Positions 24,330 through 30,928 of a stretch of DNA of 64,000 nucleotides are shown here, one piece after another; position 1 is the stretch's first letter, and each line of letters starts with the position of its first letter. Both the position numbers and the translations under genes were made by a program. The notes beneath the pieces were generated by a model. It was not told the origin of the DNA. It did not search any database and saw nothing but the letters and a program-made list of their open reading frames with translations. Origin of the DNA: Streptomyces cyaneochromogenes (GTDB lineage Bacteria > Actinomycetota > Actinomycetes > Streptomycetales > Streptomycetaceae); contig NZ_CP034539.1 in the NCBI RefSeq assembly GCF_003963535.1, positions 8,742,001-8,806,000 of the forward strand, read 5' to 3'.

Positions 24330-25313
24330 ATGAACCGCACCGCACGTGCGTTCTGGGTCAGCTCTCCGGGTGAAGGAGAACTCCGGGAGGTCGCCCTTCC
24401 GGAGCCCGGCGAGAACGACGTGCTGGTGCGGTCGCTGTACTCGGGAGTCAGCCGGGGCACGGAGACACTCGTGTTCCGCGGCGGCGTCCCGGAGAGTCAG
24501 CACGCGGCCATGCGGGCGCCGTTCCAGGAGGGCGAGTTCCCCGCACCGGTGAAGTACGGCTATCTCAGCGTCGGGGTGGTGGAGGAGGGCCCCGAGACCC
24601 TCGTCGGCCGTACGGTCTTCTGCCTGCATCCGCATCAGACGCGGTACGTCGTCCCCGCGAGCGCCGTGACCGTCGTACCGGACACCGTGCCCGCCGCACG
24701 AGCCGTCCTCGCCGGCACCGTCGAGACCGCCGTCAACGCGCTCTGGGACGCGGCTCCCCTGGTCGGCGACCGGATCGCCGTGGTCGGCGGCGGCATGGTC
24801 GGCTGCTCGGTCGCCGCCCTGCTCGCCCGCTTCCCGGGCGTACGCCTGCAGTTGGTCGACGCCGACCCGCGCCGGGCCGAGGTCGCCGAGGCCCTCGGCA
24901 TCGGATTCGCCTCGCCCGAGCAGGCGCTGGGCGACTGCGACCTGGTCGTCCACGCCAGCGCCACCGAGCAGGGCCTCACCCGCTCCCTGGAACTGCTCAC
25001 CGCCGAGGGCACGGTCCTCGAACTGAGCTGGTACGGCGACCGGCAGATCGCCCTGCCGCTCGGCGAGGCCTTCCACTCCCGACGGCTCGTCATCCGCAGC
25101 AGCCAGGTCGGCACCGTCTCCCCGGCCCGTCGCGCCAGCCGTACCTACGCCGACCGGCTCGCGCTGGCCCTCGAACTGCTCGCCGACCCGGCCCTCGACG
25201 CGCTCATCACGGGGGAGAGCGCTTTCGCGGAGCTGCCCGAGCTGATGCCGAAGCTCACCTCCGGGGAGATCCCGGCCCTCTGTCACCGCGTCAGGTACGC
25301 GGACACGCCCTGA
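24330..25313 (+). CDS. MDR-superfamily (zinc-type alcohol) dehydrogenase
   Basis: A 327-residue medium-chain dehydrogenase/reductase. It has the N-terminal GroES-like half with [16 protein letters not shown] and the nucleotide-binding half with [17 protein letters not shown] followed by LVDADPRRA (Asp after strand 2, favouring NAD). The catalytic-zinc Cys of classical alcohol dehydrogenases is not visible, so the mechanism may be zinc-independent. ATG 24330 follows TCAGGAGG. It heads the plus-strand cluster with the PTPS homologue 151 bp downstream. Predicted role: redox step on the cluster's small molecule. Confidence 0.85.
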
Positions 25314-25407
25314 CGGACTCGTTCATTCCCGGACGACAAGAGCGCCTGACCTGAGAAAAGAGTGAGAGGCGGCTGAACACGGGGAAGCGAAGAGCCGTAC
25401 TACACGA

Positions 25408-25434
25408 CATCCCCGGCACGGATCAGCGGGGATG
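25408..25434 (+). promoter_or_regulatory. Stem-loop ahead of the PTPS-like gene
   Basis: Perfect 7-bp arms CATCCCC (25408-25414) and GGGGATG (25428-25434) with a 13-nt loop, 30 bp before the TTG start. It lies in the 151-bp gap after the dehydrogenase and could be a weak terminator or a 5'-leader control element. Confidence 0.35.
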
Positions 25435-25464
25435 AGGAGCGCACCGCACCTGGAGGGTCGTCCG

Positions 25465-29586: not shown

Positions 29587-30218
29587 CCGGACATACCGAG
29601 GGTGAGGAGATGACGGCGGTCGTCCGCCACGAAATCGGAAGTCTCATATCCGGGTCGGATCAATTCGGGATGAGTGTGCAGAAGGATGGAGGTCTCAATT
29701 TCCCCCGCGTGCATGTCGGTGAGCAGCGAGGTCTCCACCCCCGCCCGCTCCCGCGCCGTCTCCCAGTCCTCCGGGGCCGGGAACAACGCCATTCGCTCGC
29801 CCCGCGCGGAGGACTCCTGAACGACATTGCCCAGTACGTAGTTTCCGCCGTGCCCGTTGACCAGCACCAGGGCGTCGACGCCCGACCGGCGGAGCGAAGC
29901 CGCTATGTCCCGTATCACCGCATGAAGGGTCACGGAGGAGATGCTGACGGTCCCCGGCCAGGCCGCGTGCTCGTGCGAGCAGGCGATCGTCACCGGCGGA
30001 AGGAGGTGCACCGGGTGCACGGCGGCTATCTCGCGTGCGATCGCGCAGGCCACGAGCGTGTCCGTCGCAAGGGGCAGGTACGGGCCGTGCTGCTCGAAGC
30101 TCCCGACGGGCAGGACCGCGACCTGTCGTGAGACGCCCGCTCCCCGCTCCCGAACGTCCTCGGTGGTGTCCGCCGGCACCAGCGAGTGTGCCGCCGGTCG
30201 CGTCTGCGAATCACTCAT
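29430..30218 (-). CDS. Creatininase-family amidohydrolase, candidate FAPy deformylase
   Basis: A 262-residue metal-dependent amidohydrolase. Motifs are VGSFEQHGPYLPLATDT (metal ligands Glu, His and Asp), VNGHGGN and DMHAGEIETS. The family includes creatininase and archaeal ArfB, which removes the formyl group from the formylamino-pyrimidine made by GTP cyclohydrolase III. The neighbouring GTP cyclohydrolase II variant is predicted to make that same compound, so deformylase (or another hydrolysis of it) is the best guess. It diverges from that gene with only 41 bp between, and its last 157 bp overlap the convergent flippase-like gene. Confidence 0.87.
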   Translation of the reverse strand: MSDSQTRPAAHSLVPADTTEDVRERGAGVSRQVAVLPVGSFEQHGPYLPLATDTLVACAIAREIAAVHPVHLLPPVTIACSHEHAAWPGTVSISSVTLHAVIRDIAASLRRSGVDALVLVNGHGGNYVLGNVVQESSARGERMALFPAPEDWETARERAGVETSLLTDMHAGEIETSILLHTHPELIRPGYETSDFVADDRRHLLTLGMSGYTDSGVIGRPSLGSVEKGKRLLASLADSFGAYVSLLTSADDSVRDPGDARA

Positions 30219-30259
30219 CTTTTCCCGGCCTTTCGTCTCTGCTTAGGAACTGAAGAATC

Positions 30260-30928
30260 ATGACAGAAAAAATTGGTGTCCTCGGCAAGAAGTCCGCACC
30301 GCGTACGCAGCGTTCCGGCGTGGAACGCGTGGTGAATGCCCCCTTGCCCACCGTGTACGGGGAATTCCGCGCGATCGGATACCTCGACCACGACCGCGGT
30401 GACGAGCAAGTGGCCCTGGTCTACGGCGAGATCGGCACGGAAGACGTGCTCACCCGGCTGCACTCCGAGTGCCTGACCGGCGACGCCTTCGGCTCCCAGC
30501 ACTGCGAGTGCGGCGACCAGCTCGCCTCGGCGCTGCGCGCGGTCGTCGCCGAGGGCCGCGGCATAGTCGTCTACCTGCGGGGGCACGAGGGCCGCGGCAT
30601 CGGCCTGCTCGCCAAGCTGCGTGCGATGGCCCTGCAGGCGGAGGGCCTGGACACCGTCGAGGCCAATCTCGCGCTCGGTCTGCCGGTGGACGCCCGGGAC
30701 TACGGCGTCGCCGCCGAGATCCTGCACGACCTGGGCGTCAACTCGGTCCGGCTGATGTCCAACAACCCGCGCAAGCGCGAGGCATTGCTGCGGCACGGCA
30801 TCCAGGTGGCCGAGCAGGTTCCGCTGTTGATCCCGCCGTGCGAGAACAACATCACCTATCTGCGCACCAAGCGGGAGCGCCTGGACCACCACCTGCCCCA
30901 TCTGGACGCGGTCGCGCACCTGTCCTGA
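30260..30928 (+). CDS. GTP cyclohydrolase II variant (FAPy-forming type)
   Basis: A 222-residue RibA-family enzyme. The zinc site is complete (Cys71 in HSECLTGD, Cys82 and Cys84 in SQHCECG) and the Arg-containing VYLRGHEGRGIGL and MSNNPRKRE segments are present. The Tyr of KIRAYALQ in E. coli RibA (Tyr105) is Met123 here (KLRAMALQ). In S. coelicolor SCO6655 the same Tyr-to-Met change (Met120) makes the enzyme release 2-amino-5-formylamino-6-ribosylamino-pyrimidinone phosphate instead of the riboflavin precursor. The same chemistry is predicted. The gene diverges from the creatininase gene and is followed 33 bp later by the amino-acid operon. Confidence 0.92.
   Translation: MTEKIGVLGKKSAPRTQRSGVERVVNAPLPTVYGEFRAIGYLDHDRGDEQVALVYGEIGTEDVLTRLHSECLTGDAFGSQHCECGDQLASALRAVVAEGRGIVVYLRGHEGRGIGLLAKLRAMALQAEGLDTVEANLALGLPVDARDYGVAAEILHDLGVNSVRLMSNNPRKREALLRHGIQVAEQVPLLIPPCENNITYLRTKRERLDHHLPHLDAVAHLS

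Follow-up and report, generated by a model that had tools for sequence, protein, structure and literature searches.

The archaeal route to riboflavin begins with ArfA, which forms the formylated pyrimidine FAPy (2-amino-5-formylamino-6-ribosylamino-pyrimidinone phosphate), and continues with the creatininase-family deformylase ArfB and the RibD_C reductase ArfC. In cyanobacteria and Chlorobium, a protein of the 6-pyruvoyltetrahydropterin synthase (PTPS) fold and a glycosyltransferase serve in the formation of tetrahydrobiopterin and pterin glycosides. In Streptomyces coelicolor, the locus SCO6650-SCO6655 encodes a PTPS homologue whose structure, and a GTP cyclohydrolase II (GCHII) whose activity, have to our knowledge been known for well over a decade; the latter, SCO6655, is a Met-form enzyme that reportedly stops at FAPy. 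The PTPS-IV subfamily, with the signature FGPAQ, is described in PMC5445326, and the available passages of that paper give PF00925 and PF01872 (RibD_C) as its neighbours; PF00925 is labelled there GTP cyclohydrolase I/FolE2, and its Pfam name is GTP cyclohydrolase II. Here we analyzed a window of 64,000 nucleotides (positions 8742001-8806000) of the Streptomyces cyaneochromogenes genome, which is one contig of 10,677,137 bases. At window positions 23460-30928 it carries eight genes, for a PTPS-IV protein, a GCHII, a creatininase-family amidohydrolase, a medium-chain dehydrogenase/reductase (MDR), a family-4 glycosyltransferase (GT4), a methyltransferase, a flippase-like protein and a CDP-alcohol phosphotransferase. 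We propose that this cluster is the Streptomyces form of an old orphan pathway that leads from GTP to a glycosylated, methylated pterin- or pyrimidine-like molecule, a reading on which our confidence is evenly balanced.

The cluster corresponds to the SCO6650-SCO6655 locus, from which we claim no difference in kind: its PTPS is near-identical to SCO6650 (3d7j, the sole solved chain matched at E<=0.001), and its GCHII is the Met variant that is reported for SCO6655. The order of the proposed steps would resemble that of the archaeal start, with a GCHII in place of ArfA and with protein scores below the ArfB and ArfC model cut-offs; as the window cluster has no deaminase, no flavin end product is expected. 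From the cyanobacterial and Chlorobium systems it differs in that the PTPS-II motif is absent and that a GCHII is present instead of FolE. The creatininase has the mycofactocin protein MftE as its best NCBIfam match, but no other mycofactocin family was among the listed matches of the ten window proteins scanned. With PTPS-IV the window protein shares the FGPAQ signature (residues 32-36); of the two neighbours, PF00925 lies in its cluster and a PF01872-type protein is encoded at a second locus of the genome. The MDR, GT4, methyltransferase, creatininase, split second locus and Met/Tyr state do not appear in the available passages of PMC5445326. Published already are the PTPS-IV subfamily with GCHII and RibD_C as its neighbours, the structure of SCO6650 and, by report, the SCO6655 activity. 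In the open-access literature searched we found no product for this locus, in agreement with the preliminary description of this DNA, which knew of none, and none of the following results: the larger set of genes, its division over two loci, the distribution of Met and Tyr, the pattern of creatininase occurrence and the F420 test presented below.

The window PTPS was searched for in 197 genomes of the order and found in 107, all Streptomyces: clade 1 comprises 83 genomes (PTPS at least 86% identical to that of the window), clade 2 comprises 21 (73-83%), and three odd genomes stand at 67-73%. At the level of the phylum, 65 of 396 genomes gave a match at E<=1e-6. A scan of genome contigs returned at least 598 stretches, at least 574 of them confirmed, and the best 80, used as distant loci, span seven phyla (Actinomycetota, Chloroflexota, Thermomicrobiota, Pseudomonadota, Acidobacteriota, Gemmatimonadota and Planctomycetota). 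Partner genes were counted in the 51 of these 80 loci that had at least 5 kb on both sides, as homologues within 7 kb of PTPS-IV: GT4 was present in 50, MDR in 48, RibD_C in 44, the methyltransferase in 42, the CDP-alcohol gene in 22, GCHII in 19, the flippase-like gene in 15 and the creatininase in 10. PTPS-IV, MDR, GT4, methyltransferase and RibD_C recur across the seven phyla, not every gene being found at each locus; neither a methyltransferase nor a RibD_C was seen in the single planctomycete locus, nor a RibD_C in the single Gemmatimonadetes locus, which lies on a short contig. The loci of Halomonas, Chromohalobacter and Methyloversatilis keep nearly gene for gene the Streptomyces order, with the differences that RibD_C follows the flippase-like gene and that GCHII and creatininase are swapped. 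Furthermore, the whole gene set was present in 16 of 20 fetched relatives' loci, and among the 197 genomes a creatininase (E<=1e-40) was present in 103 of the 107 with the PTPS versus 6 of the 90 PTPS-negative ones. This co-occurrence and the complete loci argue that the cluster is not a chance assembly, and the co-conservation that had been put forward as a check was borne out. Conservation so wide and ordered also suggests a product other than a local secondary metabolite.

The most telling partner, the RibD_C reductase, is encoded elsewhere in the genome and had been missed, so that the gene set first listed was incomplete. No RibD_C match was found within the window; the RibD_C of the genome lies at 4799776-4800438, divergent from a stand-alone Tyr-type GCHII (locus L155). 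Of the two domains known as PTPS-IV neighbours, PF00925 is in the window cluster and the PF01872-type RibD_C is found at this second GCHII locus. Of the loci fetched, all 10 of clade 2 have a RibD_C gene between those for the flippase-like protein and the creatininase, and none of the 7 of clade 1, that of the window among them, has one within the stretch examined. The actinobacterial cluster-type RibD_C (E<=1e-20) is present in 83 of 83 clade-1 genomes, in 0 of 21 clade-2 genomes (two weak in-cluster matches being set aside from this count), in 3 of 3 odd genomes and in 32 of 90 PTPS-negative genomes, 15 of these 32 in other genera; comparison of 83/83 with 32/90 gives a Fisher p of 5e-23, not corrected for kinship. 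In the trees, the L155 GCHII grouped with the cluster GCHIIs of Nocardioides, Intrasporangiaceae, Thermoleophilaceae and L034 (100/100), and the RibD_C of the genome grouped with the RibD_C of those same actinobacterial clusters (100/100), joining at 100/99 those of L070 and L071, where the genes for MDR, PTPS-IV and RibD_C sit side by side. Most simply, the second locus would be a relocated part of the pathway. By the tree, the RibD_C slot of the clusters is filled by no fewer than two lineages that stand well apart, and by a third set of unresolved placement, to which clade 2 and Halomonas belong. TIGR01508 (ArfC/Rib7) was the top NCBIfam match of the RibD_C of this genome (139.8 bits) and of L034 (128.1 bits), both below the cut-off of 186.45, and the solved-structure matches of the L034 protein include 6p8c, named as an archaeal-type reductase.

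The window GCHII keeps the three zinc cysteines (Cys71/82/84) as well as Asp144/Arg146; it has Met123 at the position where E. coli RibA (chain 2bz0) has a Tyr (presumably Tyr105), and the cysteines and Met123 are as first described. It is a RibA-type GCHII by a PF00925 score above cut-off and by its zinc cysteines, and it lacks the active-site Tyr. Met occupies this position in 16 of the 17 Streptomyces cluster GCHIIs, that of the window included, with Leu in the remaining one, and was seen only in Streptomyces; Tyr occupies it in 25 of 25 GCHIIs of named distant loci and in those of L034, L036 and L049. Since the cluster is the locus of SCO6655, it is a fair inference that its GCHII makes FAPy, as had been claimed. 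However, because the distant-locus enzymes have Tyr, FAPy does not stand as the defining intermediate of the pathway. Two further GCHIIs are encoded in the genome, both with Tyr: the RibBA of what reads by eye as a riboflavin operon (L156), and the stand-alone L155 enzyme. In the tree, the 17 Streptomyces cluster GCHIIs form a separate clade (100/100), placed beside RibBA with weak support (86/59). In the part of PMC3509567 that cites the SCO6655 work, it is said only that changed GCHII activities were reported. The available part of PMC2853524 tabulates S. coelicolor genes that are anticorrelated with predicted flux, the majority of them rising in stationary phase, and SCO6655 and SCO2687 are both among these genes; SCO2687 would be the L155-type enzyme.

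The creatininase belongs to PF02633, as previously assigned, and its structure gave the expected fold only. Its likening to ArfB found no support in the model scores, that with the ArfB model NF033501 being 38 bits (cut-off 180) and that with MftE TIGR03964, the best match, 128.1 bits (cut-off 172). Glu42, His44, Asp53, His123 and Glu175, which we take to be the metal residues, are invariant in 22 of 22 proteins. By group, the creatininase is present in 83/83 clade-1, 20/21 clade-2 and 0/3 odd genomes, and in the one clade-2 genome without it the PTPS lies at a contig end. All Met-type loci fetched (the window and 15 others) and the Leu locus carry it, and so do eight Tyr-type loci of Proteobacteria and Acidobacteria, for which reason Met123-creatininase pairing was rejected as a general rule; none was seen in the DNA examined of the Tyr-type loci L034, L036, L049, L098, L137, L142, L143 and L144, of which L036, L137 and L144 are short contigs. 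That the creatininase makes up for a lost deformylation fits the case of Streptomyces and does not apply generally. The proteobacterial and acidobacterial cluster creatininases are 24-30% identical to the window one, and paralogs in six PTPS-negative genomes (L164-L169) are 56-61% identical to it. As the cluster proteins are more unlike than these outside paralogs, two unlike family members would have come into the same cluster, which argues for a needed hydrolysis step. Deformylation is our best guess for this step in Streptomyces, and a weaker one in the other loci, where the GCHII seen is of the Tyr type. The paralogs were rejected as a clue to function, having no pathway genes alongside; those of L164 and L165 adjoin helix-turn-helix-like regulators (by eye).

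The motifs of PTPS-I (QueD, CxxxHGH), PTPS-II (CxxxxxHGH) and PTPS-III (ExxHGH), as given in the available part of PMC5041015, are not found in the window PTPS, which reads AQRLHGA; Ala stands for the QueD Cys and for one His of HGH, and the active site is altered as first stated. In the best 80 distant loci, residue 35 is Ala and His25, His39 and Glu131 are present in 80 of 80, and position 41 holds Ala in 62 and His in the other 18; as the scan patterns asked for AH, and for FGPA with HG[HA], they partly predetermine the figures for His25, Ala35 and His39, but not that for Glu131. In the PTPS fold (T-fold), the Glu at this position anchors pterins. Two Streptomyces PTPS-IV genes, in L073 and L066, have no partners, and the L073 copy aligns in two pieces and is perhaps decaying; L050 and L052, matched in the phylum scan, have the QueD-type Cys and are of another kind. 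The MDR protein has no Pfam ADH family over threshold, is BchC-like by NCBIfam and has the MDR fold by its AF2 model (pLDDT 93). Foldseek top matches of this model include threonine, butanediol, xylitol and idonate dehydrogenases, many such enzymes acting on secondary alcohols or polyols. The catalytic zinc ligands and the structural zinc lobe are missing in an alignment of the window, L113 and L082 proteins, and the GHE string was found in 1 of 107 MDR open frames, which does not describe a zinc-dependent MDR alcohol dehydrogenase. The protein is as likely to reduce an imine or enone as to oxidise an alcohol.

Gene content, residue states, co-occurrence and the reductase partnership are observations. 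In the pathway that we propose from them, GCHII would open GTP, the Met123 type stopping at FAPy; the creatininase-family protein would take off the formyl group, and the second-locus RibD_C would reduce the ribosyl side chain, so that a ribityl-aminopyrimidine would result. As there is no deaminase in the window cluster, the 2-amino group is probably kept. PTPS-IV would then use its conserved Glu to bind this 2-amino-4-oxo-pyrimidine or pterin and, together with the zinc-free MDR, close or reduce the ring or side chain, after which GT4 would glycosylate and the methyltransferase methylate the molecule. Where present, the flippase-like and CDP-alcohol proteins may export the product or tie it to a membrane lipid; both being optional in the distant loci, the lipid-linked product suggested earlier is no more than a possibility. 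Apart from the FAPy product reported for SCO6655, we infer these reactions and their order, and the T-fold/MDR step is the weakest link.

Several points weigh against this proposal. The related genomes are not independent, so that the counts overstate the link. PTPS-IV is without known catalytic residues and might merely bind a ligand. In this genome the RibD_C found in clade-1 genomes adjoins a Tyr-type GCHII, beside which the Met enzyme looks redundant. The eight loci that pair a Tyr-type GCHII with a creatininase indicate that deformylation need not be the job of the latter, and its closer paralogs in PTPS-negative genomes lie away from pathway genes. In addition, the ArfB and TIGR01508 cut-offs were not reached, and three other cluster RibD_C proteins (L082, L121 and L077; two Rubrobacteraceae and one Methyloversatilis) score best with TIGR00227, which models the C-terminal part of bacterial RibD, and two of the three pass its cut-off. 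The label 'archaeal-type' would therefore hold for the actinobacterial form of the reductase only, judging by these model scores.

A bolder reading, which we hold tentatively, is that the seven phyla share a compound not yet described, which would resemble a cofactor, pigment or signal, would be a ribityl-pyrimidine or pterin that is glycosylated and methylated, and would arise from an archaeal-style start, a repurposed T-fold and a zinc-free MDR. In its boldest form, reductase, MDR and PTPS-IV would make a redox detour around GTP cyclohydrolase I, and the FolE and zinc-loss results speak against it. Such a detour, which we consider unlikely, would have RibD_C reduce the ribosylamine, the MDR re-oxidise C2' to a ketone, equivalent to an Amadori rearrangement, and PTPS-IV close the pyrazine, to give a glycosylated, methylated dihydroneopterin-type pterin. 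This chemistry would yield the Amadori skeleton; the MDR model matches polyol and secondary-alcohol dehydrogenases, among other MDRs, PTPS-IV retains the pterin-anchoring Glu, and 11 loci from Rubrobacter, Chloroflexi and Thermomicrobiales have a FolB gene within the cluster or adjoining it. However, FolE is already present in 18 of 18 cluster genomes tested (FolE2 in 1 of 18), so that the cluster was rejected as a FolE replacement, and the MDR is without the zinc sites that alcohol oxidation normally needs in this family. Moreover, 5 of 6 genomes of Rubrobacteraceae and both of Chloroploca have no FolB other than that of the cluster, which may just serve folate. That the genes form a surface glycan or glycolipid operon, with the T-fold protein as a catalytically dead ligand sensor, is somewhat harder to credit: GT4, methyltransferase, flippase-like and CDP-alcohol genes are all present, an acyltransferase-type gene recurs in 9 loci, and Ala replaces the catalytic Cys in 80 of 80 PTPS-IV proteins (partly imposed by the search pattern), but the flippase-like and CDP-alcohol genes are optional, whereas RibD_C is found in 44 of 51 loci.

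GCHII and RibD_C are riboflavin-type enzymes, and the cluster could be an extra supply of flavin precursors with unrelated tailoring genes. This we regard as improbable, since a RibBA operon is present elsewhere (L156), Pfam scans of three RibD_C proteins showed no deaminase domain, and GCHII accompanies PTPS-IV less constantly than GT4, MDR and RibD_C do; neither RibE, RibH (lumazine synthase) nor a RibD deaminase accompanies GCHII among the window cluster genes. The earlier claim of a dedicated GTP-derived gene set, distinct from the riboflavin operon, agrees with these results. A role of PTPS-IV in F420 biosynthesis is stated as unpublished work, for the archaeal cofactor, in the available part of PMC5041015, and archaeal PTPS-IV is outside the test made here. 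For our loci it is very improbable: of 15 PTPS-IV genomes outside Streptomyces, 1 had CofH over cut-off and another had fragments at contig ends only, and all 5 PTPS-negative Streptomyces that were tested had it over cut-off, so that co-occurrence gave the F420 link no support. Still less credible is a 7-deazapurine (queuosine- or toyocamycin-like) pathway, to which a PTPS homologue within an actinomycete cluster might point, as the PTPS-I motif is absent and no radical SAM or QueC family was found among the ten window proteins scanned.

Pfam and NCBIfam matches placed the MDR, PTPS, GT4, methyltransferase, flippase-like, creatininase and GCHII genes where the preliminary description had them. 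The CDP-alcohol gene that it also named is present; it lies outside the span 24330-30928 given there, and it is not degenerate, the motif DxxDGxxAR...GxxxDxxxD being complete in 47 of 47 homologues, the window one included.

Genes of the cluster in the window (positions are those of the 64,000-nucleotide stretch)
Product	Position	Strand	Evidence and remarks
CDP-alcohol phosphatidyltransferase-family membrane protein (CDP-alcohol phosphotransferase)	23460..24257	-	divergent from operon; PF01066 E=3.3e-13
Zinc-free MDR-fold dehydrogenase/reductase, weakly BchC-like	24330..25313	+	NCBIfam, AF2 model, Foldseek
PTPS-IV T-fold protein, SCO6650 ortholog	25432..25863	+	PF01242; 3d7j E=1.4e-80; FGPAQ
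Family-4 glycosyltransferase (GT4)	25875..27077	+	PF00534 E=8.2e-29; ExxxxxxxE motif
SAM-dependent class I methyltransferase	27074..28156	+	PF13649 E=4.3e-6; DLGCGTG
Flippase-like LPG_synthase_TM membrane protein	28153..29586	+	PF03706 E=6.5e-33
Creatininase-family amidohydrolase, putative FAPy deformylase	29430..30218	-	PF02633 E=1e-61
GTP cyclohydrolase II (GCHII), Met123 type, SCO6655 ortholog by locus	30260..30928	+	PF00925 E=1.6e-66, 223.3 bits

The GT4 and methyltransferase genes overlap by 4 bases, as do the methyltransferase and flippase-like genes, in the manner of a single operon. The flippase-like and creatininase genes are convergent and overlap by 157 bases (window 29430-29586), and the flippase-like protein has a long tail past its Pfam match. 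The methyltransferase scores 27.8 bits with PF13649 (cut-off 27), and the motif DxGxGxG is found in 55 of 87 homologues, the window copy reading DLGCGTG. Downstream, window 30962-35375 is a run of ornithine cyclodeaminase-family (OCD), FAD-dependent DAO oxidase, AlaDh/PNT N-domain and saccharopine dehydrogenase C-domain genes, which looks like a separate amino-acid operon; parts of it are also found in the clade-1 loci L056, L067 and L072. These genes were rejected as cluster members, OCD and FAD being found in 0 of 51 distant loci each and in 0 and 2 of 20 relatives' loci, respectively; the two saccharopine-type genes were scored only in the fetched relatives' loci. Other genes adjoin the cluster in distant loci. 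In the Rubrobacter-type clusters L075 and L077-L082, FolB and an acyltransferase-like gene adjoin RibD_C; the acyltransferase-type gene that recurs in 9 loci matches PF01553 in L048. In the alphaproteobacterial-type loci L096, L105, L106, L108, L110, L135, L139, L141 and L151, the cluster is followed by sugar-kinase-like and aldolase-like genes, named by eye after their resemblance to four-carbon acid sugar kinase and class II aldolase. A relative of the FkbM-family methyltransferase of L127 is found near the cluster in L101, L102, L113, L114, L117, L126, L127, L128, L134, L136, L148 and L154.

The gene list, the second locus, the hosts outside Streptomyces (Halomonas, Chromohalobacter and Hydrogenophaga) and the lack of support for F420 narrow the open question of what this locus makes. 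If the proposed pathway is true, it would be a new branch of GTP-derived cofactor chemistry, and it would help to re-annotate several hundred PTPS-family proteins (561 according to the available part of PMC5445326; at least 574 confirmed stretches here).

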